From Terriglobia bacterium (GTDB lineage: Bacteria; Acidobacteriota; Terriglobia; Terriglobales; Acidobacteriaceae): a stretch of 64,000 bases of DNA. How positions within the stretch are numbered: the first letter of the stretch is position 1; each line of letters begins with the position of its first letter. The stretch lies in NCBI GenBank assembly GCA_020072585.1, contig JAIQGL010000010.1, forward strand, positions 124,001 to 188,000. The letters are read 5' to 3'. The position numbers were made by a program, and so were the translations under genes. Below, in pieces: positions 13,444 through 41,802 of this stretch. The notes beneath the pieces were generated by a model that had not been told where the DNA came from, did no database searches, and saw nothing but the letters and a program-made list of their open reading frames with translations.

Positions 13444-14403
13444 TTACTGGAACGTTCCGCCCAGAGTCTGGTCGCAACCGCCACCGCGGCTGTTTTCCCA
13501 GTTCATCTGAAGGAGGAAGTTGAGACCGCCCAAGGTCTGGTTGAAGTGAGATCCGTTGGCAGCGGTCGATGTGGTGCCAAAGCGGAAGTTGCACTTGTCG
13601 GCATTCTCCTGGCCGCTGGAATCAAACCAGGCATTGAGGTCAGGATCAGAAATGGCTTCTTCTGTCTCGTGCGCAATCACGTTGGCCATTCCATCGGCGC
13701 CACCGCCGCTTCCGGCAGTGCTGTTAGGGCCAGTGGTCTGGGCTTCGCAGCCGGAGGGACACTGGTCAACATTTCCGATAAAGGCCCACTTAATGTCGGC
13801 GCCGTTGAGCGTTTGACGGGTGTGGAAGCCGCAGAACTGGGTGCAGAATCCGCTCTCTTTAACGTCTGATGAGGTCAGGAACAGATACACACCGCTGGCA
13901 TCGGTAGGCAGGTTGCCGCTGGTGAGCTGGGCAGAGATGGCCGACGAAATCCTGCTATTCCTGAGCCTCGTGCCCTGGGAGCCCGAATCAAAAACTTCCT
14001 TGACCAGGGTCATCGCGCCGCTGACGTTTCCGGTGGCGTCGCCGTAGGTAGAATTGATTTTCTCGTAGCCGCTGTTGCTGAGACCTCCGATGAGAGTCTC
14101 AATGATGGTGCGCGTGGCGGCAGTATTAGAGCCTGTGCCATTCCAGTTGCCGTACCAGATGATGTAGATCGGTACAGTACCTTTCAGGACCGGGCCGCCG
14201 TTATAGTTGATGCCGTTGCCGGTGACCACCGCCTGCCCGGTGGGTCCTGCTGCCACAGCAGCAGCGCTGCCGTCGCCGTTGGGGACGTTCTTCATTCCAT
14301 CGGGAGCACTTCCTTCGCGCACCTTCTGTGCCACCAGAAAATTCGCTGCCAGGAGGACGAAAAGAAAGGCTAGCGCATATTTCATTTTTCCAAGAGTTTT
14401 CAT
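13444..14403 (-). CDS. Exordium-like secreted protein 1 with HExxE motif
   Basis: A 319-residue exported protein. The start at 14403 is chosen because it follows TGAGGTCA, a ribosome site shared in position with the paralogue downstream, and gives a clean signal peptide (ALAFLFVLLAANFLVAQ). The body has the IYIIWYGNWNGTG strand typical of phosphate-induced/EXORDIUM-like proteins, conserved Cys pairs (C187/C191 around H194, C215/C219), and HETEEAISDPD at residues 245-255. That HE..E...DP pattern resembles metal-binding segments of secreted peptidase-like proteins, so a hydrolase role is possible but not shown. The plant EXORDIUM family has a growth-linked cell-wall role; no function can be transferred here. 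Confidence 0.78.
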   Translation of the reverse strand: MKTLGKMKYALAFLFVLLAANFLVAQKVREGSAPDGMKNVPNGDGSAAAVAAGPTGQAVVTGNGINYNGGPVLKGTVPIYIIWYGNWNGTGSNTAATRTIIETLIGGLSNSGYEKINSTYGDATGNVSGAMTLVKEVFDSGSQGTRLRNSRISSAISAQLTSGNLPTDASGVYLFLTSSDVKESGFCTQFCGFHTRQTLNGADIKWAFIGNVDQCPSGCEAQTTGPNSTAGSGGGADGMANVIAHETEEAISDPDLNAWFDSSGQENADKCNFRFGTTSTAANGSHFNQTLGGLNFLLQMNWENSRGGGCDQTLGGTFQ

Positions 14404-14695
14404 CTTGCATGACCTCATTATCTTAATTTGCTGCGTTCTGCTGAATACAGAAGAAGCCGGAAAAATTGTTGGCCGAGAATGAATAATGGCTGATCCCTGA
14501 TTCGCGGCGCCCCGGAATCGGTAGAGCAGATTGCCGGAGAGACTATCACGGCTGCGGGCTGGGCACAATCACGATTCTCGCTGTCGTCGCTAGCAACGTC
14601 GCATTCTGCAAAAAGATTAAAAAACGCAAATTTATCGATTTTTATCTTCCCTAATCGGTATTTTGCATCTGGTTATAGTCGACAACCACAAAAAA
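14404..14695. other. Leader and promoter region of exordium-like gene 1
   Basis: About 290 bases before the terminator of the upstream paralogue. The segment next to the gene shares blocks with the leader of the paralogue: reverse-strand CGGCTTCTTCTGT (14447-14459), ACGCAGCA and TGAGGTCA, so both genes keep a homologous 5' leader of about 70 bases. The remainder shows no gene. Confidence 0.5.
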
Positions 14696-14720
14696 CAGGG
14701 CCGCCGTGGAGACGGCCCTG
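14696..14720 (-). terminator. Intrinsic terminator of exordium-like gene 2
   Basis: An 8-pair stem, CAGGGCCG with CGGCCCTG, and a 9-base loop, followed in leftward transcription by six T residues (A run at 14690-14695). It lies just after the stop codon at 14729. Confidence 0.8.
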
Positions 14721-14728
14721 AATGTTGT

Positions 14729-15739
14729 TTAGAGGTGCTGAGCGCAAGCGCCGGCGCCTGAGTTACGCCAGTTCTGTTGGAGGAGGTAATCATTGCCGCC
14801 AAAAGACTGGTTGAACTTGGCAGCAGCCGCTTTCCCTGCCGCGCTGCAAATGCTGGTGGATGTGCAGGTGGAAGTTGTGCCGAAATTAAAGTTGCACTTA
14901 TCGGCGTTTTCCTGGCCGCTGGAATCAAACCAAGCATTCAGGTCAGGATCAGAAATGGCTTCTTCCAGCTCGTGCGAGATGACGTTTGCCATACCGTCAA
15001 TGCCGCCCTGGCCAGATACGGGGCTGTTGGGGCCGGTCGTTTGGGATTCGCAGCCTGAGGGGCAGCGATCTACGTTGCCGACGAATGAGTACTTCACGTC
15101 CGTTCCGCCGAGCGAAGCATGGGTGTGGAAGCCACAATACTGCGTGCAGAAGCCCGAGGTCTCATTGATGTTAGAAGAACTCAATACAAAATAGACGCCA
15201 TTGGAATCCCGGGGAAGTGCGCCTGAGCTGATCGCATTGTTGACGGTTGTCCGCAGGCTGGTATCGGTCAAGTTGGTTGAGCTGCTGACGATCGTGCTGC
15301 CGCCAAAACGCACGTTTCCAGTCACGTTGCCGGTAGTGTCACCATAAGTGCTGTTGACGAGCTCGAGAGCAGAGCCGCCGATGGTGCCGAGGAAATGCTC
15401 GATCGCGCTGCGTGTGGCAGCCGTGTTCGATCCGGTACCATTCCAGTTTCCATACCAGATTACGTACACATTGGGCGTGCCCTTCATCACGGGGCCGTTG
15501 TGATAATTAATGCCATGGCCTGTTGAAACGGCCTGACCAATGGGGCCGGGAACAGCGGGCAATGCCTGATTTGGATTGCCACGGTGGCTGTGGGTGATAT
15601 CGTCAGGCACCGGGTCCATCGCCGTCTGGCCCGGGTTATCAACATGCTGCTTGACTGCCTGGGCCATCAAGAAATTGGCGGCCAAAAGCATGAAAAGGAA
15701 AACTGATGCAAATCTAATCTTTCCCTGGGGAAGTTTCAT
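14729..15739 (-). CDS. Exordium-like secreted protein 2 with HExxE motif
   Basis: A 336-residue paralogue of the protein at 13444. The start at 15739 follows GTGAGGTCA at the same distance as in the other copy, and the upstream open frame up to 16072 is not needed. Signal segment FASVFLFMLLAANFLMAQ; then the shared VYVIWYGNWNGTGSNTAATR block, paired Cys in GFCTQYCGFHTH and DRCPSGCESQ, and HELEEAISDPD, followed by LNAWFDSSGQENADKCNF. It carries an extra Cys-rich insertion before the C-terminus (TSTCTSTSICSAAGKAAAAK). Exported; substrate or partner unknown. Confidence 0.78.
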   Translation of the reverse strand: MKLPQGKIRFASVFLFMLLAANFLMAQAVKQHVDNPGQTAMDPVPDDITHSHRGNPNQALPAVPGPIGQAVSTGHGINYHNGPVMKGTPNVYVIWYGNWNGTGSNTAATRSAIEHFLGTIGGSALELVNSTYGDTTGNVTGNVRFGGSTIVSSSTNLTDTSLRTTVNNAISSGALPRDSNGVYFVLSSSNINETSGFCTQYCGFHTHASLGGTDVKYSFVGNVDRCPSGCESQTTGPNSPVSGQGGIDGMANVISHELEEAISDPDLNAWFDSSGQENADKCNFNFGTTSTCTSTSICSAAGKAAAAKFNQSFGGNDYLLQQNWRNSGAGACAQHL

Positions 15740-16145
15740 TACACTGACCTCACTGTTTTGTAGGATTGTGCTGCGTCTGTTTGAAAAAAGGAACAGAAGA
15801 AGCCGAGACTGCCTATGAATTGATTCACACGAATGACCTTCCCGTTTTTTATTCAGGTGTTGATATCCCACTGTTCGAAATGCTTGACGGCTCGCGCTAA
15901 AACCGGAAGTCAGCGTGCAATGTTGATGGAGTCTACTACGGCGAAGGGAACTCTCATTAAAAAAAAATAAATGTTCTGAATGCGGAACAAGAAAAAATTT
16001 TGATATTAAAATTTTTTCAAGCAATGCCGGCCAGGTTCCAGGCAAATGAGCACCCTTTGCGAACTGGACCACGCCTGTCAGACAACAAATGTTCGGAGAA
16101 AAACTTCACTCGCCGTCTATCCATGAAACTAATTCCGGGATTGGT
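15740..16145. other. Intergenic region downstream of the ubiquitin-like operon
   Basis: About 400 bases. It holds the leader of exordium-like gene 2 (reverse-strand CGGCTTCTTCTGT at 15793-15805) and an AT-rich stretch at 15955-16020 that could serve as its promoter. I do not see an intrinsic terminator for the leftward operon that ends at 16146. Confidence 0.45.
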
Positions 16146-16766
16146 TTAAGAAATTACGATCTTCTGTTCCCAGGGATCTTCGTCAGAACGAGGTGCGGCG
16201 CTGGGCTGCGCCTGAGAGGGAGTTCCAACCGGAGGCGGGATTTCTTGCGCGGCAGGCGTGGGCAGGGGTACCGACGCTGGTTCGGCTTGCGGTTGGTCCG
16301 CCAGCGGCGGAGCGATCGGTCGCGCATCCACGGGCAGCAGTTGGCTGTTTTGCGCGGCCCATTTTGCCGCCAGGCCGTTCAGCGGGCTCTTGGTGTTGTA
16401 CTCCTGATAAGAAATCATTCTTCCGATGCGGATAATGAGATCGTCCAGAGATTCTGAGGCGGCCCAGAAATCGCCGATGCAAACCGAACTGTCATCGAAA
16501 TTAGGATGAAAAACCGGCGTGAGCATGCGGCATTGCGGAGCGCGGCGCGGATAACCCAAAGAAAGATTGACCTCCAGCAGATGGTCATCGCGCTCCAGGA
16601 TGGCGCCATTGGGCGCCACGTACAGACCACGCACGAGATATTGAAAACGATACAGCTCGGGCGGCATTCCCGCCGTACCCACAATGCGGATCAAAGGCCA
16701 GCCGTTAAAGCGCTTGAATAGCGAATCGTGATCGAGCTTAAGGCGGCGAATTCTGGGTGACAACAT
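16146..16766 (-). CDS. E2 ubiquitin-conjugating-enzyme-like protein
   Basis: A 206-residue protein; the ATG at 16766 lies 7 bases after the DUF2752 stop. Residues 1-140 read as an E2 (UBC) fold: N-terminal helix RIRRLKLDHDSLFKRF, strands FQYLVRGLYV and DHLLEVNLSLGYPRRAPQCRM, then HPN (87-89) and, seven residues on, the candidate active-site Cys C96 in DDSSVCIGDFW, then the helix LDDLIIRIGRMI and SPLNGLAAKWAAQN, which matches the SPAN..AA.. helix of eukaryotic E2s. The HPN Asn, which stabilises the oxyanion in ubiquitin transfer, is present. A Pro/Ala/Gln-rich tail of about 65 residues follows. It is the last gene of the nine-gene operon and should receive the ubiquitin-like protein from the E1. 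Confidence 0.88.
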   Translation of the reverse strand: MLSPRIRRLKLDHDSLFKRFNGWPLIRIVGTAGMPPELYRFQYLVRGLYVAPNGAILERDDHLLEVNLSLGYPRRAPQCRMLTPVFHPNFDDSSVCIGDFWAASESLDDLIIRIGRMISYQEYNTKSPLNGLAAKWAAQNSQLLPVDARPIAPPLADQPQAEPASVPLPTPAAQEIPPPVGTPSQAQPSAAPRSDEDPWEQKIVIS

Positions 16767-16773
16767 AAGCGAC

Positions 16774-17154
16774 TCAAAAAGCGAACAGCGTATTTCTTGC
16801 AACGGTGAATAACAAGACAGTGACAACCAGACAAGCGACCAGTGCACGCGGGATTACCAGGCGCGGAAATTGATCATACCGCATCACGCGATAGGAGCAG
16901 TAGGCAATCCACAGGAAAGCAAATGGGGCCAGCACGGAAAACAAAGCGTTATAGTGAAGCGCGCTCTGCACGTCAAAGTGCAGAAGCGCATGCAACGCCC
17001 GCGTGGAGCCGCAGCCGGGACACAACCAGTGCGTTGTCGTATAGATTAGGCAACGGGGATAGAACCCGTACTCTGCCGGGGAAAACTTGTACACCACTGC
17101 CAGGCCGGCCAATATGGCGGCGGCTGCTGTCCCGGTAAGGATTCTCCGTTTCAT
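16774..17154 (-). CDS. DUF2752 membrane protein
   Basis: A 126-residue protein with three hydrophobic segments. HWLCPGCGSTRALHALLHFD is the DUF2752 signature (CPGCGSTRA), with a Cys pair and a following His. Function unknown in all members I know. The ATG at 17154 overlaps the stop of the GYF gene by one base (TAATG), so it is translated with that gene. An upstream in-frame start at 17190 would lie inside the preceding gene and is less likely. It is the eighth gene of the ubiquitin-like operon and may be a membrane partner or target. Confidence 0.82.
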   Translation of the reverse strand: MKRRILTGTAAAAILAGLAVVYKFSPAEYGFYPRCLIYTTTHWLCPGCGSTRALHALLHFDVQSALHYNALFSVLAPFAFLWIAYCSYRVMRYDQFPRLVIPRALVACLVVTVLLFTVARNTLFAF

Positions 17155-17864
17155 TAGCCCTGAGGTTGCAGAACTCCGCTTCTCTTCCATTCACTGATGC
17201 GGGAGAAGTGGTGCTGGAAATAGAAAACACCAAAGAAGAAAGTCATTACTCCATTCAGTTGCAGGTGAATGGGCTCCTGAATGTTGTAATAATCTTCAAG
17301 ATCGCCCTGCATCTGAAATAGTCCGACAAATAAAAGGACCAGACTCGACAGCAGCAACAACGCGCCCAGGGGACTGCCATCGTTCCTGGCCCCGGCGACG
17401 CCGGCGAACGAGAAACCGACAAAGGATGCGACCAGTGAAAGGATGACCAGGAGCAAGCCCTTGCTGTCTTGCCGGATTTTCCTGACATAGGCGGCTTCTA
17501 CAATGAGCCAGACGCAGTAAAACAGCCCGCACGTAACCAGGGAAATCACCAGGACCAATGCCCAGTGAAAATCCGGGGGCACCGGGCCGCCGGCGAATGG
17601 TGTTACAGTTTGTCCCCCATACATGGGCGCTCCGGTGTATACCGTTCCACCATAGACATTCGGAGTTCCGGGCATCTGCGCAGGCACGGCCGCAACGGGC
17701 ACTGGAATATTGCCTATCACTTGCGAGACCGGCACCCAATCCGTCATGCCTTCGCTGCGGGTCAGGTCGGTCATCAAGATACTTCCCTGACCGATATAAC
17801 GTTGCAAATCGGCCAGCGTGTACGGACCATACTCATTGAGTTCGCGTTGAATGTAATATTTCAT
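17154..17864 (-). CDS. GYF-domain membrane protein
   Basis: A 236-residue protein. Residues 1-50 form a bacterial GYF_2 domain (YYIQRELNEYGPYTLADLQR, then DWVPVSQ), a fold that binds proline-rich peptides. A Pro/Gly/Tyr linker follows, then about four hydrophobic helices, the first two of DUF4234-like form (ALVLVISLVTCGLFYCVWLI). Several operon partners have proline-rich tails (the E2, the JAB protein, the RING protein), which would be natural GYF ligands; this is inference. It starts 15 bases after the RING gene. Confidence 0.82.
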   Translation of the reverse strand: MKYYIQRELNEYGPYTLADLQRYIGQGSILMTDLTRSEGMTDWVPVSQVIGNIPVPVAAVPAQMPGTPNVYGGTVYTGAPMYGGQTVTPFAGGPVPPDFHWALVLVISLVTCGLFYCVWLIVEAAYVRKIRQDSKGLLLVILSLVASFVGFSFAGVAGARNDGSPLGALLLLSSLVLLFVGLFQMQGDLEDYYNIQEPIHLQLNGVMTFFFGVFYFQHHFSRISEWKRSGVLQPQG

Positions 17865-17879
17865 TCGTCATCCGGACAA

Positions 17880-18494
17880 TCAGCTGAAATTCAGACCAGT
17901 GCTGTCTTTTTCCACAATACAAATCTCAATGATGGCCCAGATCCAGGAGATGATACCAAGATAACCGAGCGTGAATATGCTAAGGCAGAGCTGCCCTACT
18001 CCTCGCCCAACATAACCGGCGTAGAAGTTGTGTATCCCCAGGGCGCCAAGAAAAATGCCGAGAACAATGTAAGTGGACCTGCTTTTTTGCTGCCGGCCAT
18101 AAGCGCCGTACTGGTATCCAACCGGCACTGCTGGTCCATATGTATATGGCGCTGAAGCCGGTGCGGACATGCCTGCGCTTTGCACTGGAGCAGGCGCTGC
18201 CGCCTGCGACAATCCCAACGGCCCACTATAAGCTGACGGCCTGTATGGCTGTGCAGGAACATACTGCTGCGCGGAAGGCGCATAAGGCTGGAGGGGCACG
18301 GCCTGCAAATCGCTTTGGGATACCTGGAGTTTTGGATCGTCCGCTGGGGCACACTTGCAACCGAAGACCGTGCAACCTCCATTTTCACGATAACAGTCTT
18401 CATGATGCGGCATGCCGCAAGCCGTGCAGAAAATCCGCGGCGGCGAGGCCTCGTCAAAAGGCATGCGGCAGTAAGGACAGACGGCGGCGCTCAT
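17880..18494 (-). CDS. Prokaryotic RING finger fused to TM2 membrane domain (E3-like)
   Basis: A 204-residue fusion. The N-terminus is a binuclear treble-clef zinc finger of the prokaryotic RING 1 type: C6-x2-C9, C23-x2-C26, H30/H31, C34, C41, C46 with the signature ENGGCTVFGC. A Pro/Ala/Tyr-rich linker (about 60-135) leads to a TM2 domain (YIVLGIFLGALGIHNFYAGY, then a second helix YLGIISWIWAIIEICIV). RING domains bring E2-charged modifier to targets, so this is the likely E3, held at the membrane. The ATG overlaps the FHA stop (TAATG). Confidence 0.87.
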   Translation of the reverse strand: MSAAVCPYCRMPFDEASPPRIFCTACGMPHHEDCYRENGGCTVFGCKCAPADDPKLQVSQSDLQAVPLQPYAPSAQQYVPAQPYRPSAYSGPLGLSQAAAPAPVQSAGMSAPASAPYTYGPAVPVGYQYGAYGRQQKSRSTYIVLGIFLGALGIHNFYAGYVGRGVGQLCLSIFTLGYLGIISWIWAIIEICIVEKDSTGLNFS

Positions 18495-19561
18495 TAGTTT
18501 CTCTGCCTTTCGCGGAAGTGAAACGCGTAGCGGCCAATCTGGAGAAGATCTCCGCTTTGCAACGCACGATTACGGGCAGGTGCGCCGGAAACAAAAATCG
18601 GCCCGTCAGCACGCAAAAATGTCTGCGCGCCGCGCAGCTCAATCATGCCATGCTGGGGAAGAATGGTGGTGTCTTTGAAAAGATAGATGTCGCACGACTG
18701 GCTGCTGCCAATGGTGGTGAGCGGTTTGTAAAGAATAAATTGCTTGCCTGCCAGCGGTCCTGAAGCGACATAAAGCCAGCGGTCTTTGAGCGCGCTTTCC
18801 ACGATCCCTATGGCCACGCCCGTGGCCAGTCCCACCAGACCGAAACCGACAGCACGGCTGACACTTCCTGTACGCGTGGCAAAACTGATTGGGTCAAAAA
18901 CCATTCCACCCAGGCCCGCGCCCAGCAGTCCACCGAGAATGCCATATTTGGTTTTGCGTCCTGAACGGTCTACCAGGCCGTATACCAGTCCGCCTGCAAC
19001 ACCGAACACCGCCCAGGCAATCCCGCGAACCAGCCAGAACGCAGGGTTCTTATTGGTTTCCACGCCGAGGGAGGCAATGATCTGCCGCCCGATGAAATAG
19101 ATGAGGTTGGCGAACCGGTCAAAGATAAAACCAAACACCAGGCCAAGAGCCAGCGCCAGGAGTCCGCGAATCAAGGCTTTTTTCGCTGAGCGCTCCACAA
19201 TGCTTTCCGCCACGCCCAGCCCCAAACAAACAAACATTACAGTCAGGGGAAGCATGAAATAGTTAGCCCAGCTTCCGCGGGCTCCCGGACCATCAGAAAA
19301 GAAAGGTTCACAGATTCCCCATCCCACCAGCGCCCCCACCAACCCGGCAGCGCCCAGATAGAACCAGCCTTGCAGAAAGATGCTTCCTTTTTCCTCGGCC
19401 ACGGCAACAGGTCCGTCACCAGGCGTAGCGATATTGCCGTATTTCTTTTCACCCGCCGCGGTCGCCACCATCGTCCCGCCCGGGGTTTGCGCGGGCAGCT
19501 CCACTTTGGCCAGGTCTTCCAGTGTGATCTTCAGCGTCGGCTTGTCATCAGTGCTTGCCAT
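18494..19561 (-). CDS. Polytopic membrane protein with C-terminal FHA domain
   Basis: A 355-residue protein. A soluble N-terminal 55 residues, then about six or seven Gly-rich hydrophobic segments (roughly 58-83, 100-121, 128-150, 175-198, 206-222, 236-258) and a C-terminal FHA domain (about 265-352) with the TTIGSSQSCDIYL strand, PQHGMIEL and GDLLQIGRYAFHF. FHA domains bind phosphothreonine peptides, so the protein may tie the conjugation system to Ser/Thr kinase signalling. It overlaps the JAB gene by 14 bases and the RING gene by one (TAATG). Confidence 0.85.
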   Translation of the reverse strand: MASTDDKPTLKITLEDLAKVELPAQTPGGTMVATAAGEKKYGNIATPGDGPVAVAEEKGSIFLQGWFYLGAAGLVGALVGWGICEPFFSDGPGARGSWANYFMLPLTVMFVCLGLGVAESIVERSAKKALIRGLLALALGLVFGFIFDRFANLIYFIGRQIIASLGVETNKNPAFWLVRGIAWAVFGVAGGLVYGLVDRSGRKTKYGILGGLLGAGLGGMVFDPISFATRTGSVSRAVGFGLVGLATGVAIGIVESALKDRWLYVASGPLAGKQFILYKPLTTIGSSQSCDIYLFKDTTILPQHGMIELRGAQTFLRADGPIFVSGAPARNRALQSGDLLQIGRYAFHFRERQRN

Positions 19562-20414
19562 TGTTTCCTTTTTCTGCGGGAGCTTTTGGTTGCGGCTGAG
19601 GCGCCGCCTGTTGTGGACTTTGTATGGGCGCTACCGCCCCATTCTGGTCAGGAGCGGCCTGCATATAGGGCTGCAACAGCACACGACACGCGTCCATGGG
19701 ATGCTCCAATATCTGCTGGTAGCTGCGAATGACCGGATCCACTTGCCGCGCCAGCCATTGATGACCTAAGACGAAACCCAGAACAACGGCGGCAATGTAT
19801 CCCATGGTCAGGCCAGTCCATTTCATCCAGGCCGGCTCCTGCCGGCCTCTCTCGCGAGGCGCCCGGGCCATGGAATCCATCGCGGGAGTGTCTTCATCAT
19901 CTTCGTAGTCGTTACCGCCGGTGTTTGTGATCTCTATTGACTCCGAATAGCCCATGCGGACGGCAGAAAGCTTTTCAATGTTGCCGCCAACCCAGCCAAA
20001 GCAGCCTTCCTCATCCGTGTGCGGATCGTAGACCCATGCAACCTGCTGAGGGTTGGAGAAAAAGTTCTGCTGGATGAAAAGGTCGTGCTCGGAAAGGAAC
20101 ACGCCGAATCCGGGATGCGAGTGGTACCAGCCGACAATCTTGTGCTCGGGGAAATCCTTATCCTTGATTTTGTAAATGTGCTCCCACGTATCCTGCGTAA
20201 AGGTGACGTGAGCGCCGCCCTGCGCCGCATTGATGCCGGCAATGCAGGCCTCAACGGTCATGCGCTCATGCTCGGTGCTGCCGATCAACACCCCGCATAC
20301 CTCCGCTTTCATGGAGCTGCGTGCGTGCTGGCGGATTTTGCGCGCCACCTCGGCTTCCATCACCACTACCGGGTGAGTGGATACTCTCACTTTTACTTTG
20401 GCCTGCTTTGCCAT
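19548..20414 (-). CDS. Membrane-anchored JAB/JAMM metallopeptidase (deconjugase-like)
   Basis: A 288-residue protein. Residues 12-150 are a JAB1/MPN domain with a complete JAMM centre: E38 (KAEVCGVLIG), H98-x-H100 (YHSHPG), S108 and D111 (FLSEHD), the H-x-H-x7-S-x2-D pattern. An acidic linker and one transmembrane helix (about 199-220, preceded by basic residues, so the peptidase should face the cytoplasm) are followed by a Gln/Pro/Ala-rich tail. JAMM peptidases trim ubiquitin-like precursors or cut isopeptide bonds. The ATG overlaps the E1 stop by one base (TGATG). Confidence 0.9.
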   Translation of the reverse strand: MAKQAKVKVRVSTHPVVVMEAEVARKIRQHARSSMKAEVCGVLIGSTEHERMTVEACIAGINAAQGGAHVTFTQDTWEHIYKIKDKDFPEHKIVGWYHSHPGFGVFLSEHDLFIQQNFFSNPQQVAWVYDPHTDEEGCFGWVGGNIEKLSAVRMGYSESIEITNTGGNDYEDDEDTPAMDSMARAPRERGRQEPAWMKWTGLTMGYIAAVVLGFVLGHQWLARQVDPVIRSYQQILEHPMDACRVLLQPYMQAAPDQNGAVAPIQSPQQAAPQPQPKAPAEKGNNGKH

Positions 20415-21619
20415 CAGTGCGCCATCCCCGTTGCCATCTGGCCCAGCACCTGCTTTTCATCGCCGGCGATCAAATACGCAATTTCGCGCTTCGGCGAGCG
20501 CGCGGTGAACACGTCAAAGATCGGAAGCCCGAGCTGATCAAGAGTCAAGCCGCCAAATTTCTCATTGCCGGAGTAGCTGTGCGCGGTGATAACCGCCCGC
20601 ATCTGGCCATCCGTGGCGCATTTGCCGCGAGCGTATGGCACCGTACCGACGGCCGCAAACAACTCTTCTTCCGCGCCGCAACCCGGGCACACCAGCTTGT
20701 GAATCACATCACGGCTGAACTCAAGAACAACGTTTTCTGAACCCAGATCGTGGCGCGCGCGCGCCAGCAATTGCGCCAGTGTAAGTTCGCGCGATGCTTC
20801 CTGAAGTCGAATGACCTCCGCAAACGTGTAATGGCTCATGCACTCCGCGTTCTCAGTGTATTCAACCTTATATGAGGTATGGTTCAGCCCCTCAAAGATG
20901 AAGCCCTTCCCGGCCAGCACGGGCAGGCCATGCAGCAGCTTCACCGCTTCCTGTACCTGCATTCCGGCGATGATGGAAGAGATGGTAGGCGTGGTAGCAA
21001 CCTTTCCTTCCGTATCGCTTTCCAGCGCCAGCAGGTTGCAGGACATGCGCTTGTTCAGGATGGCCCAATCGGTTTCGCCGAGCGTGCATTCATAGCAAGG
21101 CGGCTGCCCGGGCGCAAACATGCGGGCCACACCGTTGATACCTTCAATGGCGCCATCAATCCACGGCTTGTTCATCTTCCAGCAGGCACGATTGATCCAT
21201 AGACGCGCTTCGCGATTGTCCAGGCCGGCCAACACCACATCAGCCCATGCGAAAAGTCCCAGTCCCAGACCATGCACCACGTTGGCCGTGATGGGATGGA
21301 CCTTTGCCTCGGGAAAAATATTCCGTACTGCATCCGCTGCAACATCGGCTTTCTGCCGTCCAACATCGCTGGCGCGATAGAGAATGCTGCGCGAGAGATT
21401 GGAGGACTCAATGGAATCAAGATCGACGACCACGATGTTGGCAAAACCAAGCAGCGCCAGATTTTTCAGGATCTCATTGCCCAGCGCGCCCGCGCCGATC
21501 ACCAGCACGCGCGCCGAACGCAGCTTTTCCTGGTCCCACCAGCCGATGAGACGGAAGCGGCTGAACCGGTCCTCGTTCACGGTTACTGCGCCAGCCGGCA
21601 ATGTTACGGACTTGCTCAT
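20414..21619 (-). CDS. E1-like (ThiF/UBA3-type) activating enzyme
   Basis: A 401-residue E1-superfamily enzyme that should adenylate the C-terminus of the ubiquitin-like protein. Nucleotide site: VLVIGAGALGNEIL (G42/G44/G47), VVVDLD (acidic D67/D69), NLSRSIL (N74/R77), K90. CYECTL (C175/C178) with LVCPGC (C311/C314) should bind zinc. C194 in KRMSCNLLALE follows the first zinc pair at the spacing seen in UBA3, where the transthiolation Cys sits (CIECTL...FPMCT), so C194 is the candidate catalytic Cys. VATTPTISSIIAG continues the fold. About 85 extra residues follow the second zinc pair. Its ATG overlaps the ubiquitin-like stop by four bases (ATGA). Confidence 0.9.
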   Translation of the reverse strand: MSKSVTLPAGAVTVNEDRFSRFRLIGWWDQEKLRSARVLVIGAGALGNEILKNLALLGFANIVVVDLDSIESSNLSRSILYRASDVGRQKADVAADAVRNIFPEAKVHPITANVVHGLGLGLFAWADVVLAGLDNREARLWINRACWKMNKPWIDGAIEGINGVARMFAPGQPPCYECTLGETDWAILNKRMSCNLLALESDTEGKVATTPTISSIIAGMQVQEAVKLLHGLPVLAGKGFIFEGLNHTSYKVEYTENAECMSHYTFAEVIRLQEASRELTLAQLLARARHDLGSENVVLEFSRDVIHKLVCPGCGAEEELFAAVGTVPYARGKCATDGQMRAVITAHSYSGNEKFGGLTLDQLGLPIFDVFTARSPKREIAYLIAGDEKQVLGQMATGMAH

Positions 21620-21891
21620 CGTGCTCCCGCAGTGATTTCCGGCTGCAGGCGAAGGATGTCACCCTCTTTCACCGCGGCGTCCGCAAGCGTTTGTGAGTCC
21701 TGTATTTGCCGGCCTGAGTTTTTGTGGTGAAACTTGTAGCTGAGCGGAGCGCCATCAGGGCCGCTTTGCGGCAATTGCAGCTTGTCCACCAGCACGGCGA
21801 TGATGCGGTTTGCCGGCGCATCGTCCGGCAGTTCTACCGGGACGCGCTTGTTTTCCGTTGAATCGTAGACCGTAACAGTTATGTTAGCCAT
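21616..21891 (-). CDS. YukD-like ubiquitin-like modifier
   Basis: A 91-residue single-domain protein with beta-grasp layout: strands ITVTVYD and KRVPVELP, helix ANRIIAVLVDKLQL, then SYKFHHKNSGRQIQ, a QTLADAAV turn and the last strand GDILRLQPEI, like EsaB/YukD-family ubiquitin-like proteins. The tail is EITAGAR: no Gly-Gly, but Gly89 is followed by two residues (Ala-Arg) that the JAMM peptidase could remove to expose a C-terminal Gly. The ribosome site AGGAAG is 8 bases from the ATG. It sits between the protease and the E1 that overlaps its stop codon, which strongly marks it as the E1 substrate. Confidence 0.88.
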   Translation of the reverse strand: MANITVTVYDSTENKRVPVELPDDAPANRIIAVLVDKLQLPQSGPDGAPLSYKFHHKNSGRQIQDSQTLADAAVKEGDILRLQPEITAGAR

Positions 21892-21903
21892 TTTTTGAGC
21901 TTC

Positions 21904-23007
21904 CTATCGCACGGGTGCGGCGTCAGCCGGGGCCTTGCGTACTCTGGTCTGGTGCACGAAATCCGCAAGCAAGTTCTTGGGAGCACTTCCTCCGCTGACC
22001 ATCTCCCAGTCCGCCTCATGCAGAAGCGCATCTGTGCTGATGGCAAAATTCAGGTTCTCCGCCTCCGGCTCCAGGGACCGCGCCACCTTGGAAGTAACAA
22101 TGCCAAGCAGATTGCCAAACTCATCATAGACCGGCCCGCCGCTGTTTCCGGGACTGATAGGAGCTGAAACCTGCAACAGGTCATTCCCGGGCGTGCGCGA
22201 AACAATGCCGTTGCTGACGGAAAAATTCAAGCCTTCCGGGTGGCCGATAACAAAAATTCTTTCACCCATCTGGACGCTGTTATAGGTGGCCACGGGCTGG
22301 GTAAACTCGGCATCGCCAAAGTGCCGCTCCAGCCAGAGAAGCGCAACATCGAACCGCTTGTGGCGGCCCACCACCTGCGCTGACGCCCATCCATTCATGC
22401 CGACGGAAACCATTACTTTCTGTGTACCGTTGCGAGATTTCCAGCCTTCGCCATCGGCTACATGGCGCGCGGTGGCCAGCAGGTACCCGTGCGAATCAGA
22501 ATGGAGAATCAACGCGGCGCCCAGAAGGCCGGAAGCCCCATAGGTCTGCTGAAACCAGCGTTTCGCTGTGGGCGAGGCCAGCAGCACCAGCGGCTTCAGA
22601 GTCGAGCTCAGTTCCACCCCGGACATTACCTTGCCGGCTGGCAATGCCGGGAAATTGCTGCGTTCGTCCAGGTCAGAAAGTGAGGAACCAATGGCATCCG
22701 GCGCCGATATTGAGTCCAGTGAAATAGTGAACACCGCCAGCATGGTGGAAAAAAGGCCACTGATAATCAGCAACGTCAGCAGATAGGACGCCCAGGTTTG
22801 GCGTACGCGGGGCGCCTGGCCACGAATCGCCATGCGCAGGATCAGCGTCGCCAGACACAGCAACGGCAAAACCGGAACCAATAGAGCCAATAACAGCCGG
22901 ACCCACACGGGAACGGGGTTAGGTACTTTTGGGCGAACTTCCTGCGCTCCCTGTACGGGAATCTGCGCCTGGGCAACTTCCTGGTTTGTAATGACAATAG
23001 GATCCAT
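21904..23007 (-). CDS. Membrane trypsin-like serine protease
   Basis: A 367-residue protein, first gene of the operon. Two transmembrane helices (about 36-59 and 73-96) are joined by a basic loop (RMAIRGQAPRVR), which by the positive-inside rule puts the loop in the cytoplasm and the protease domain outside. The catalytic triad of the trypsin/DegP fold is complete: H182 (ATARHVADG), D220 (RFDVALLWL) and S289 (SPGNSGGPV). No PDZ domain is seen. It may signal across the membrane to the conjugation machinery, or process an envelope target; both are inference. The start ATG lacks a strong ribosome site. Confidence 0.85.
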   Translation of the reverse strand: MDPIVITNQEVAQAQIPVQGAQEVRPKVPNPVPVWVRLLLALLVPVLPLLCLATLILRMAIRGQAPRVRQTWASYLLTLLIISGLFSTMLAVFTISLDSISAPDAIGSSLSDLDERSNFPALPAGKVMSGVELSSTLKPLVLLASPTAKRWFQQTYGASGLLGAALILHSDSHGYLLATARHVADGEGWKSRNGTQKVMVSVGMNGWASAQVVGRHKRFDVALLWLERHFGDAEFTQPVATYNSVQMGERIFVIGHPEGLNFSVSNGIVSRTPGNDLLQVSAPISPGNSGGPVYDEFGNLLGIVTSKVARSLEPEAENLNFAISTDALLHEADWEMVSGGSAPKNLLADFVHQTRVRKAPADAAPVR

Positions 23008-38222: not shown

Positions 38223-39356
38223 TTACAATCCGACCTTCTTCTTCGGCGAACAGAACCGGCGATGCTGCTCCAGAATGTAGCTGTCCGTCATTCCGGCTAC
38301 GTAATCGCAAACAATGCGGTGGAGCGGTTCAATCCGCGTTTTCTCCTGGTAGCTGGCCGGCAGCTCTCGCGGTGACTTGATAAAGAACGCGAACATCTCT
38401 GCGATCACCTGCTCCGCCTGCTTCTTGTCCCGCTGCAGCACTGGGCTAAAATAGACGTTCTGATAGAGAAAGTCTTTGATCTGCCGCCTCTCCTGGTCAA
38501 CCCCGGCGCTGAAGGAACAGAGCCTGTGCGCGAACTTGCGAACATCCACCACCGAACCCACGCCTGACTGGCTGACCTGGTTGCGCGTGTGGACAATCAA
38601 ATCGCTCACCAACCGGTCCAGCACGCGCTTGAGCGTCTCATTGAATTTTAGTTTCTCCGTGGCCGTGGGATATAGGCGCTCAACTTCTTCATAGAGGCGC
38701 GCAAAAACGGGGACCTCCCGGCGCACCTGCTCGCGCGTCAGGATCTTCGCTTCCACGCCATCGTCAAGGTCGGCCGTGGAATAGGCGATCTCATCGGTAA
38801 AGTCGATCAACTGCGCTTCCAGGGGTGGCTGCTGGTCCAGCAGGTATTCCGCCAGTTGCGGAAAGTCCTGTACATCGTAGTCACGTGAGTGCTTCACAAT
38901 GCCCTCGCGCACCTCAAACGTCAGATTCAGTCCTGGGAAATCGGCATAGCGCTGCTCAAACTGCTCCACCGTGCGCAGCGCGTGCAGGTTGTGGTCAAAC
39001 TGGTCGCCATGCTCCTGCATTGCCACGTTGAGAATGCGCTCGCCCGCGTGTCCGAATGGTGGATGGCCCACGTCATGCACTAGCGCCAGCGCCTCCACCA
39101 GGTCTTCATTCAGTTGCAACTCGGCGGCGATCGTGCGCGAAATCTGCGCTACTTCAATGGTGTGCGTAAGCCGGTTGCGGAAATGATCGGAGTGCCGCCG
39201 CGTAAAAACCTGCGTCTTATTTTCCAAACGGCGGAAAGCCCGCGAGTACACAACGCGATCGCGATCACGCTGGAAGTCGTTGCGATAGGCATGACCAGCC
39301 TCAGGATAGCGCCGTCCACGGCTCTCCTCGGCGCGCAACGCGTAGGGAGCAAGCAT
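38223..39356 (-). CDS. dGTP triphosphohydrolase-like HD-domain protein
   Basis: A 377-residue enzyme of the dGTPase family, which splits dGTP to deoxyguanosine and tripolyphosphate. YRNDFQRDRDRVVYSRAFRRLENKTQVF is the family hallmark; HD metal ligands are H65 (RNRLTHTIEVAQ), H94/D95 (LVHDVGHPPFGHAGE) and a later Asp (LIDFTDEIAYSTADLDDG). An in-frame TTG at 39404 would add 16 residues; I prefer the ATG. It is flanked by unrelated genes, so it is probably monocistronic. Confidence 0.87.
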   Translation of the reverse strand: MLAPYALRAEESRGRRYPEAGHAYRNDFQRDRDRVVYSRAFRRLENKTQVFTRRHSDHFRNRLTHTIEVAQISRTIAAELQLNEDLVEALALVHDVGHPPFGHAGERILNVAMQEHGDQFDHNLHALRTVEQFEQRYADFPGLNLTFEVREGIVKHSRDYDVQDFPQLAEYLLDQQPPLEAQLIDFTDEIAYSTADLDDGVEAKILTREQVRREVPVFARLYEEVERLYPTATEKLKFNETLKRVLDRLVSDLIVHTRNQVSQSGVGSVVDVRKFAHRLCSFSAGVDQERRQIKDFLYQNVYFSPVLQRDKKQAEQVIAEMFAFFIKSPRELPASYQEKTRIEPLHRIVCDYVAGMTDSYILEQHRRFCSPKKKVGL

Positions 39357-39595
39357 GAAAAGAGTGTAACTTAGATTGCGATTTAGAACCTCTACCAAAC
39401 CCAAGTACTGGGTTCACAGCTGCCTGGAGATTCGCGGCTACCAGCTTTTCTCCGTGTCTCTCGCGAAAATGCGGCTACCCCTGAAAAATGCTACGCTGAG
39501 GGACAGACGCCATCCCGAGAGATCCCGTAAATTTGGCTGCGCTGTCATCGGCAGCCAAATAGGTGTAGCAAAAAAAATTGGCGCCAAAAAACAAA

Positions 39596-39618
39596 CCCCT
39601 CGCGGTTTACGCGAGGGG
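39596..39618 (-). terminator. Intrinsic terminator of the large TPR gene
   Basis: A 9-pair perfect stem, CCCCTCGCG with CGCGAGGGG and loop GTTTA; leftward transcription continues into TTTGTTTTTTGG. It lies 27 bases past the stop at 39646. Confidence 0.88.
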
Positions 39619-39645
39619 CCAATTACCAAGTACCCAATACCGCTT

Positions 39646-41802
39646 TTACTGCTTCGGCGTCTGCTGCGCCAGCTTCACCTTGGTGCTTTCCAGCTTTTTC
39701 GTCACGCGGGCCACATCCTGCTGGTCCACGTCCGCTGGGGCTGATTTGCTCCACTCGTCCAGCGCGTGCTCCCAATGCGCGGCGGCAAGCTTGAACCGGT
39801 TGGTGCGGGCATAGAGTTCGCCCAGGTGGTCCTGGACGGTCGCATCATTCGGGCTCTTGTCCGCGGCGCGGCGCAGGTTTTCTTCCGCCTGGTCATAGTT
39901 GCCCAGTTTGAAGTAGACCCATCCCAGCGAATCAAGATACGCGCCATTCTGCGGATCAAAATCCAGCGCCTTTTTGATCAGCGTGAGCGCTTCTTCCAGA
40001 TGGCTGTTGTGGTCGGCCAGCATGTAGCCCAGGTAATTCAGAGCCATGCTGTTGCTGGGATTCTGTTGCAACACCTGGCGGAATGCCTGCTCCGCCAGCT
40101 CAAATTTCTTCTGCCGCTCGTAGATGGAGCCTTGCAGGAAGCGGATGTATTCTCTCTCTTCCGCTCGGGTAGCGAACTTCTCCGCCTGGGCAATCGCGTC
40201 TTCTGATTCCTTCCAGCGCTTCAGCCGCATGTAGATCTGCGAAAGCATGATGTACGTGTCGCGGTCTTCCGCTCCACCCTTTAATACTGACTTGGCGATT
40301 TGAACGCTCTCATCAGGCTTGCCGGAATCCGCGAGCTGCTGGGCAAGTGTGAGCTTCAGGCCTTTGTCATTGGGCAGCTTCTTTACCGCTTCATGCGCGG
40401 TGCGCGTGGCGTCACTCCATTGCTTCTGGTCGCGATACGCGTCAATCACGTCCTGATAGCCGCGTGCCGCCTCATCTCCTCCCAGATCAACAATCTTGCG
40501 GAACGTCTCCATCGCCAGCAACGGCCGTCCGGCTTCACGATAAATATTTCCCAACCGTTCCAGAAACAGCGCTCTGTTGCCCTTGTCGCCGGAGCGCGCA
40601 TCCGCCGGCAATGGCCGGCTCACCATCTTCTGTAGGACAGCGGCGGCCTCTTCATACTTGCCTTGCGCTTCCAGAATCAACGCCTCGTTGTAAGGGATTT
40701 CCAGTGAATCCTGCACCAGCGCGCCGGCTTTCTTCAGGTTCTCCATGGCCAGGTCAAACTTGCCCATGCGCCGGTAAATCTCAGCCACGCGCAACGCCGC
40801 GGTTGCATCTTGCGGATCTGCGTCCTGGATGGTCCTGTACTGGTCCAGCGCAGCGTCAATCTGGTTGTCATTGGAGAGGTTCTGGGCCAGACCGCGCATG
40901 GCATCCAGGTTCTCCTTGTCCATCGTCAGCGCCTGGCGGAAAGCGGCGATCGCGTTCTTGTAATCTTTCTGCTGCTCATAGGTCCCGCCCAGAGCGGTAT
41001 AGATCTTTGCCGAGCGTCGCCCCTCAGGCACTGATTTCAACAGATCGGTGGCCTTCTTGTTGTCGCCCTCTTCGTTGTACAGATAAGCCAGATTGGTGAT
41101 GGCCTCTTCTGAATTTGGATCCAGGCTGATGGCGGTCTTGAATTCGCTCTCGGCCTTGATCAGGTCCTTGTTCAGAAAGTACAAGCGGCCCAGCAGCAGA
41201 TGATTGTCCGCGCTCTTGGGCTCGATTCTTGTCATGGCTTCATACTGCTCAATGGCCAGGGTAAGCACTTCGCGGGATTGCGTTCCCGGCTGTAGGTCGC
41301 CCAGCGACCGCAGATAGATTCTTCCCAGCAGTTTGTGCGCTTCCAGATTGTTCGGATCGCGTTTGATGATTTCCTGGGCTTCCAGGACCGCGTCGCGAAT
41401 GCGTCCGGTCTTGGCGTAAAGTTCCGCCAGCGCGGCATTCAGATATTCTGACGAAGGATCGCTCTCAATGGCCAGCCGGTATTCTTCAATGGCCTTGGTG
41501 GCATATTCGGACCGCCCGTACATGGCCATCATCTCTTCGTACATGTGCGCCAGCGCGAAGTGATAGTAAGCGGCTGCCTGATCGGGCTTTTTGTCCGTTT
41601 TGTTTTCCGTTTTTGGCTGGCTGGGCTTCGCAGCCTGGTTTGCATCCTTTGCTTCCTTGGTCGCGGCCCCTTTCTGGGGCGCAGCGTCTTTCGGCGCGGG
41701 AGCAGCGGGGGCCTTGGGGCGCATGCCTTGCTGGGCAAACACACTTACGGTTGCGAGCAGGAACAACGTTGATAGAAGAGAGCGGGTTTTCATGAAAGTC
41801 AT
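39646..41802 (-). CDS. Large exported TPR-repeat protein
   Basis: A 718-residue protein with a signal peptide (SLLSTLFLLATVSVFAQQ), an Ala/Lys/Pro-rich stretch (about 28-75) and some 15-17 tetratricopeptide repeats (for example AYYHFALAHMYEEMMAMYGR, LLLGRLYFLNKDLIKAESEF, ALNYLGYMLADHNSHLEEAL). It ends with a Lys/Gln/Thr-rich tail. TPR arrays scaffold protein complexes; no specific partner can be named. The TPR array is followed directly by a terminator. Confidence 0.85.
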   Translation of the reverse strand: MTFMKTRSLLSTLFLLATVSVFAQQGMRPKAPAAPAPKDAAPQKGAATKEAKDANQAAKPSQPKTENKTDKKPDQAAAYYHFALAHMYEEMMAMYGRSEYATKAIEEYRLAIESDPSSEYLNAALAELYAKTGRIRDAVLEAQEIIKRDPNNLEAHKLLGRIYLRSLGDLQPGTQSREVLTLAIEQYEAMTRIEPKSADNHLLLGRLYFLNKDLIKAESEFKTAISLDPNSEEAITNLAYLYNEEGDNKKATDLLKSVPEGRRSAKIYTALGGTYEQQKDYKNAIAAFRQALTMDKENLDAMRGLAQNLSNDNQIDAALDQYRTIQDADPQDATAALRVAEIYRRMGKFDLAMENLKKAGALVQDSLEIPYNEALILEAQGKYEEAAAVLQKMVSRPLPADARSGDKGNRALFLERLGNIYREAGRPLLAMETFRKIVDLGGDEAARGYQDVIDAYRDQKQWSDATRTAHEAVKKLPNDKGLKLTLAQQLADSGKPDESVQIAKSVLKGGAEDRDTYIMLSQIYMRLKRWKESEDAIAQAEKFATRAEEREYIRFLQGSIYERQKKFELAEQAFRQVLQQNPSNSMALNYLGYMLADHNSHLEEALTLIKKALDFDPQNGAYLDSLGWVYFKLGNYDQAEENLRRAADKSPNDATVQDHLGELYARTNRFKLAAAHWEHALDEWSKSAPADVDQQDVARVTKKLESTKVKLAQQTPKQ

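Follow-up and report, generated by a model that had tools for sequence, protein, structure and literature searches.

This analysis concerns a 64,000-nucleotide window of DNA from a Terriglobia bacterium (contig JAIQGL010000010.1), and within it an operon predicted to encode a ubiquitin-like conjugation system. The operon occupies positions 16146-23007 on the minus strand and consists of nine open, tightly packed leftward frames in the order TRYP, ubiquitin-like protein (Ubl), E1, JAMM, FHA, RING-TM2, GYF, DUF2752, and E2. Each of the nine proteins is assigned by Pfam, the weakest assignment being that of the RING. The products and their principal sites are as follows.

21904..23007, minus strand: TRYP, with two N-terminal transmembrane (TM) helices (38-56, 77-95) and a trypsin/HtrA-like protease domain (Pfam Trypsin_2, 5e-20)
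21616..21891, minus strand: Ubl, 91 amino acids, YukD-type (Pfam YukD, 2.4e-14)
21625..21642, minus strand: C-terminal PEITAG of the Ubl, residues 84-89, conserved as P-E-[IVM]-x-A-G
20414..21619, minus strand: E1, 401 amino acids, adenylation domain and C-terminal domain (Pfam ThiF, 1.8e-57)
21038..21040, minus strand: Cys194 of the E1, proposed thioester cysteine, present in 42 of 42 aligned sequences
19548..20414, minus strand: JAMM peptidase with a C-terminal TM segment at about residues 199-222 (Pfam JAB, 4.7e-17)
18494..19561, minus strand: FHA protein, about five hydrophobic segments and a C-terminal FHA-type domain (Pfam FHA, 2.1e-5)
18506..18769, minus strand: FHA/YscD-like domain (Pfam); closest solved sequences GarA/OdhI, best 2.6e-6
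17880..18494, minus strand: RING-TM2, with an N-terminal C4HC3 zinc finger, a Pro-rich linker, and a TM2 domain (Pfam TM2, 2.5e-13)
18357..18479, minus strand: RING zinc ligands C6, C9, C23, C26, H31, C34, C41, and C46, present in 29 of 29
17154..17864, minus strand: GYF_2 domain and three predicted TM helices (Pfam GYF_2, 3.2e-9)
16774..17154 (alternative start 17190), minus strand: DUF2752 membrane protein (Pfam DUF2752, 3e-17)
16146..16766, minus strand: E2, 206 amino acids, Pro-rich tail, C-terminal DPW...IVIS (Pfam UQ_con, 2.3e-8)
16479..16481, minus strand: Cys96 of the E2, present in 35 of 36

Neighbouring frames overlap or sit no more than 15 bases apart across all nine genes. The Ubl/E1 junction is ATGA, the E1/JAMM junction is TGATG, the JAMM and FHA frames overlap by 14 bases, and TAATG stands at the FHA/RING junction and at the GYF/DUF2752 junction, the latter provided that DUF2752 starts at 17154 and not at 17190; the remaining gaps measure 12 bases (TRYP/Ubl), 15 bases (RING/GYF), and 7 bases (DUF2752/E2). 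A first-pass annotation of this DNA had described a nine-gene leftward run with these overlapping junctions, and the frames are indeed open at that place and on that strand. Cys194 of the E1, Cys96 and the HPN motif of the E2, and the HxH-x7-S-x2-D motif of the JAMM peptidase all lie at the positions it gave, and the complete Ubl/E1/E2/RING/JAMM set with membrane partners that it proposed is borne out by the Pfam assignments and by conservation across genera and phyla. The operon represents more than chance, given significant matches to curated profiles and the recurrence of the gene set elsewhere. We consider it probable that the operon encodes a membrane-docked ubiquitin-like protein ligase, a prediction drawn from protein sequences and structural models.

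The Ubl, a beta-grasp protein of YukD type and the only YukD match in its own genome, ends in PEITAG followed by A90-R91; we propose from the alignment that Gly89 is the mature end and that A90-R91 is a removable tail. Among the 38 closer Ubls (matches scoring at least 95 bits, out of 53), 35 carry P-E-[IVM]-x-A-G near the C-terminus, of which 17 stop exactly at the glycine and 18 bear tails of up to 51 residues. By analogy with BilA and BilC, a fixed glycine followed by a tail of free length may be read as the pattern expected of a precursor that is trimmed to a reactive C-terminus. A wider glycine pattern, assembled after looking at the sequences, fits 48 of the 53. Of all products of the operon the Ubl is the best conserved, as ubiquitin is in eukaryotes, having the highest identity to the window in all 17 loci of the pairwise table (in locus L005, 90% for the Ubl, 62% for the E1, and 64% for the E2). 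A search of its profile against the Protein Data Bank (PDB) returns a weak polyubiquitin match, best 8.9e-4 over 25 residues, with no single stretch passing alone. Variants of the Ubl occur at other loci. At L003 (5084-5356) and L004 (3373-3729) the Ubl gene is immediately preceded by another Ubl gene, whose product is probably not conjugated because it lacks the PE-x-x-AG end. The more distant operons at L047 (9118-9402) and L049 (9031-9318) show a diglycine form of this layout, their Ubl ending in NTRGG and a further tail, and the Ubl frame at L044 (9861-10610), where FHA is matched as well, apparently contains two beta-grasp segments and ends in REEIAG plus a tail.

The E1 was aligned with 41 other matches, of 53 in all, leaving out L130, L094, and L049 (cut coverage), L043, and matches below 250 bits. 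Same-genome duplicates (L001, L132, L133, and L137) were dropped before the matches were counted. In this alignment C175, C178, C194, C311, C314, and C334 are invariant (42/42). C260, H263, and C334, likewise invariant in 42/42, go beyond the two expected zinc pairs. The AF2 model of the E1 has a mean predicted local distance difference test (pLDDT) score of 91.3 and a predicted template modelling (pTM) score of 0.90, and ThiF/MoeB structures align to it over about residues 14-265 (208-233 residues). The structures that reach residue 386-387, with 290-311 aligned residues, are UBA1, UBA6, UBA7, one SAE2, and one UBA3, the best of these rows being 9dqb_B (Z 28.8, root-mean-square deviation (rmsd) 3.5, 306 aligned). 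The part of the E1 after about residue 265 is read here as a putative ubiquitin-fold domain (UFD-like) with a zinc-binding insertion. Two hydropathy matches in the E1 sit in the Rossmann core and are discounted as TM segments. A C-terminal UFD in the E1 and an HPN-type E2 are definition features of the prokaryotic RING-containing Ubl/E1/E2/JAB operons, and the Ubl, E1, E2, RING, and JAB-family proteins are encoded together in the window. Burroughs, Iyer, and Aravind are said to have reported both YukD-like Ubls and UFD-bearing E1s in 2011.

The E2, a single match in its own genome, has HPN in all 36 aligned sequences (from 53 E2 matches, those of 99 bits or less being left out). Its family profile finds 263 PDB sequences at E ≤ 0.01 (best 8.1e-11), and each of the best 60 of the 263 bears the name of a ubiquitin-conjugating enzyme or a ubiquitin carrier protein, so the UBC fold that had been expected of the 206-residue protein is upheld by the sequence profile. 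The end of the E2 varies with gene content: a [DAE]PW motif with a short hydrophobic stretch ends the E2 in 9 of 12 operons bearing GYF vs 0 of 16 without it (16146-16200 in the window), a motif picked after looking and a comparison from which 8 of the 36 E2s are left out, the script having found no core end in them. As a check on binding of the Pro-rich E2 tail by GYF, the proline content of the tail gives no separation between loci with and without GYF. The E2s of L086, L090, and L092 end in an acidic-LIIE sequence reminiscent of SUMO-interacting motifs.

The RING-TM2 finger of the window scores 27.2 bits, where the Prok-RING_1 cut-off is 29.1, and Prok-RING_1 matches all 29 aligned relatives, the window included, at E ≤ 0.01 (best 2.5e-16); the alignment holds 29 of 38 matches, without those below 45 bits, L007, and the second finger of L082. 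In the structural model the finger is confident (block means 92-95, residues 21-50) and the TM2 domain forms two helices, with an overall pLDDT of 67.9 and pTM of 0.33. Prokaryotic RING fingers are described, in the accessible part of PMC11354881, as C4HC3 with a longer last pair; the window finger, C4HC3 with four residues inside the last ligand pair, fits that part of the description. The same source says that bacterial RING domains lack two zinc-ligand pairs, whereas all four pairs are kept in this family.

Membrane proteins are predicted for six of the nine genes. By hydropathy there are two TM segments in TRYP, one in JAMM, about five in FHA, three in GYF, and three in DUF2752 (in its 138-residue version), and this prevalence of membrane proteins is the basis on which tagging of envelope proteins may be suggested. 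The window TRYP carries the catalytic motifs TARHVA and GNSGG, and thus the His and Ser of a trypsin-like protease. Lys/Arg are usually more frequent in its inter-TM loop than in the stretch that follows, and its N-terminus is not clearly poor in them, which is only suggestive of a periplasmic protease domain. The JAMM motif HxH..S..D is present in 49 of 53 JAMM matches. In the 44 loci with both an E1 and a JAMM, a JAMM TM segment (threshold 1.5) is found in 25 of 27 loci with FHA vs 5 of 17 without (Fisher p 1.9e-5), a test that ignores shared ancestry and in which some FHA-minus loci (L009, L098) end at a contig edge. The two FHA-bearing exceptions are L002, at 1.43 just below the threshold, and L003, at 0.3. 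Positive-inside counting of Lys/Arg gives no clear signal for the orientation of the JAMM TM segment.

The FHA protein had been taken in the first-pass annotation for a phosphopeptide reader, and the tagging for kinase-linked; here the outcome differs from that of the tagging genes and their membrane partners. Yop-YscD_cpl matches the domain with a better E-value than FHA (8.5e-8 vs 2.1e-5), just below its own cut-off. Compared with GarA/OdhI, the domain in the window lacks both the Arg after the conserved Gly (GR) and the Ser three residues before the His (S-x-x-H), which are phosphothreonine-contact positions of FHA domains. Across 27 of the 31 matches (those scoring at least 150), the position aligned to the GR Arg holds Ser in 25, Lys in one, and Gly in one, with Arg in 0/27; the position three before the His is Ser in 0/27, and the His is kept in 27/27. 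The domain retains G-x5-[DET]-[IV]-[YF]-[LI]-F-[KN]-D, and the later N-G is kept in the Planctomycete members. With these contact residues lost, phosphothreonine reading, and hence the kinase link, is unsupported; we reject the reader, and there is no Pfam kinase match among the nine proteins.

The conserved gene order that had been anticipated is found in other genomes. The E1 scan gave eight loci, in assemblies labelled Acidobacteria, Verrucomicrobia (one), and Planctomycete groups. In the profile survey (E ≤ 0.001, at which many matches are distant relatives), the E2 profile matches 22 of 396 genomes of the window's phylum, and the Ubl profile matches 13 of 200 genomes of its own family, 28 of 343 in the phylum of the Thermoguttaceae assembly, and 4 of 240 in the phylum of the Verrucomicrobia-labelled assembly. 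All nine genes are present in 9 of the 62 loci with a match, counting the window itself: the window, L002, L005, L037, L124, L125 (TRYP split over two frames and E2 running off the contig), L127, L128, and L129. DUF2752 alone is absent from L038, L039, and L126, and L130, on a short contig, has neither DUF2752 nor a separate JAMM frame. The sets of Planctomycetes and others are reduced or reordered: L084, L087, L088, L089, and L091, all Planctomycete, encode Ubl, E1, JAMM, FHA, RING, TRYP, and E2 in another gene order, with a weak DUF2752 match (21-39 bits) and no GYF. Several loci, among them L086, L090, L092, L101, L139, and L140, have just four of the nine genes within the stretch examined, namely E1, Ubl, E2, and JAMM; the membrane genes of the operon are absent from it, and the JAMM is short and anchor-free.

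Within the genus, the operon is shown in five of eight genomes. In the window, L124, L137 (the same genome as L002), and L037 its neighbours are an Lrp/AsnC regulator gene on one side and tandem Phi_1 genes on the other; L133 (likewise L009) has the regulator flank only, followed by the contig end. Both flanks are also present in the operon-free L135 and L134, separated by about 0.4 and 1 kb respectively, and none of the operon genes lies in that interval; therefore, within the genus, gain or loss concerns the operon as a whole and happens at a single site. The operon-free L136 keeps an oxidoreductase gene and neither adjoining flank, and says nothing on the site. The tandem Phi_1 (phosphate-induced protein 1) genes, which we take to be of the plant EXORDIUM type, adjoin the operon at 13444-16072 of the window, and the array is also present in two operon-free relatives. 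At E ≤ 1e-40, the E1 matches 1 of 72,556 plasmid records. This sole match, at 38831-39796 of the Crinalium plasmid NC_019754.1, has 37.6% identity over about 80% of the query and is annotated as ThiF family.

From these components we infer a possible pathway, in which each reaction step, partner contact, and substrate, and the role itself, is put conditionally. The membrane JAMM would trim the Ubl tail and expose Gly89 (PEITAG), and the ThiF-type E1 would adenylate Gly89 and form a Ubl thioester on Cys194. The UFD-like C-terminal domain of the E1 may then recruit the E2, with the Ubl passing to Cys96. The RING, held at the membrane by the TM2 domain, would engage the E2~Ubl and promote transfer to lysines of membrane or membrane-proximal proteins, and JAMM could also take the tag off. 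The FHA-type and GYF membrane proteins may act as scaffolds, GYF perhaps through Pro-rich or PW-containing parts of the E2 or RING. The HtrA-like protease, whose probable location is the periplasm, may serve on the envelope side as a sensor or an effector. The tag probably does not lead to a proteasome, because the single proteasome-family (PF00227) match in the genome is HslV-like; a 20S proteasome was accordingly rejected, this assignment having been made by eye rather than by profile.

Several observations weigh against a membrane-docked ligase of this kind. The Ubl ends in AG, not GG, and the motif fails in three of the 38 closer Ubls: that of L096, which reads PEIIAA, and the additional copies at L003 and L004. 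The sole exception to Cys96 is the E2 of L007 (3666-4382), which keeps HPN and has Asn in place of the catalytic Cys; the Ubl profile finds no Ubl in that genome. The JAMM motif is missing from four of the 53 matches, each of them weak and distant, and in L003 and L004 the JAMM has no TM segment and TRYP has no GNSGG. The trimming of the Ubl by JAMM rests on analogy with the Bil peptidase, BilC, which, according to the available part of PMC11354881, trims the Ubl BilA and frees its glycine. The E1 model rows reaching 386-387 have rmsd values of 3.5-7.3, and other SAE2/UBA3 chains stop at 265-369 of the model. For the RING model, Foldseek is weak (best E 1.0, mostly PHD fingers with one RING-H2), and VIA-align gives one row of 58, with Z 2.3, on the TM part. 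The RING that had been called in the 204-residue protein thus stands on the sequence side (Prok-RING_1 and ligands both 29/29), while the fold searches, at E ≥ 1, do not tell RING from PHD; its ligase activity is a prediction. The shared ancestry and contig edges behind the JAMM anchor comparison count on this side as well.

As to role, a more elaborate proposal is a dedicated inner-membrane Ubl ligase in which a periplasmic HtrA-like sensor switches the cytosolic E1-E2-RING via FHA/GYF scaffolds and tags membrane proteins, with the Ubl under ubiquitin-like constraint and no 20S proteasome; taken whole, we regard it as doubtful. Anti-phage defence, in which phage or membrane proteins would be tagged during infection as Bil does, is a rival on role and not on chemistry, and it too seems to us unlikely. 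Bil is a phage defence (PMC11354881 and PMC13373217, in their accessible parts), and presence or absence as a unit at one chromosomal site and the sparse distribution in phylum (E2) and family (Ubl) would suit such a function; the site, however, is common across the genus rather than varying, and spread on plasmids is minimal. In PADLOC, parts of the E1 adenylation domain resemble CBASS E1-E2 models (best 4.2e-17) and BilD (2.3e-11); there are also matches of JAMM to JAB models (best 1.3e-7) and of TRYP to RT-Protease_XI (1.7e-10). All of these, however, are widespread superfamilies, and six of the nine proteins, including the Ubl, E2, and RING, have no PADLOC match at E ≤ 0.01.

Other rivals concern the chemistry. 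One is that the YukD-like protein has a structural function and is never conjugated, as in type VII secretion, with the E1 and E2 homologues acting otherwise; this is suggested by the Pfam YukD match, by a weak NCBIfam EccD match (0.0011), and by Bacillus YukD, reported in the available part of PMC1779556 not to be conjugated. The glycine end of the Ubl with its variable tails and the sharing of an operon with E1, E2, and JAMM nevertheless make this very improbable, and type VII secretion was rejected on the absence from the genome of any WXG100 match over the cut-off (one sub-threshold match, 24.6 vs 27.3 bits). A sulfur-carrier system of the ThiS/MoaD type, to which the ThiF/MoeB-type adenylation domain of the E1 could point, is less probable still: the Ubl ends in AG rather than GG, Pfam finds no rhodanese or other sulfur-transfer family among the nine proteins, and E2 and RING proteins are not known to act in sulfur-carrier systems.

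If the chemistry of a membrane-docked ligase works as predicted, bacteria would have a compact E1-E2-RING-JAMM cascade with a layout close to the eukaryotic pathway, built on a YukD-type modifier and docked at the membrane, which would bear on the origin of ubiquitin signalling. With Gly89 and a removable tail predicted and the cysteines conserved, a small number of purified proteins would be enough for a direct test. An operon of this kind is already known in silico, since PMC4197634 (citing Burroughs 2011) reports that Actinobacteria, Planctomycetes, and Acidobacteria have operons akin to the archaeal Ub-E1-E2-RING-DUB cluster, which it called uncharacterized in 2014, sporadic, and often missing in close relatives. 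No laboratory test of such an operon was recognised in the literature searched, whose coverage is thin for subscription papers. The present operon therefore appears to be a further member of a predicted kind. New here are the Gly-ended Ubl with putatively removable tails, the UFD-like E1 end suggested by the model, the tie between the JAMM anchor and a membrane gene, presence or absence as a whole unit, and the removal of the phosphopeptide-reader idea.

Type II CBASS (Cap2/Cap3) combines a CD-NTase with an E1-E2 fusion; here no CD-NTase appears among the nine Pfam results, and E1 and E2 have a gene each. Like the present operon, type II CBASS and Bub are bacterial E1/E2-type conjugation machinery; for Bub, PMC13373217 states that protection against phage has not been demonstrated. 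The nearest studied pathway comparable here is Bil (BilABCD), which shares Ubl, E1, E2, and JAB and differs in three defining features described in the available part of PMC11354881: BilA has two Ubl domains and the window a single Ubl of 91 residues; BilD has an inactive and an active adenylation domain, and the 401-residue E1 one ThiF domain; BilB has a CEHH motif, whereas here HPN and Cys96 are followed by I-G-D-F-W, with no CEHH Glu or His in the consensus stretch. The window has a RING and membrane proteins in addition. The Caldiarchaeum subterraneum operon, as described in the accessible part of PMC4197634, likewise holds a single-copy modifier, E1, E2, RING, and JAMM-type peptidase in one cluster; in contrast to it, the present operon has a YukD-type Ubl with an AG end, its RING and JAMM are anchored in the membrane, and TRYP, FHA, GYF, and DUF2752 add another four membrane proteins.

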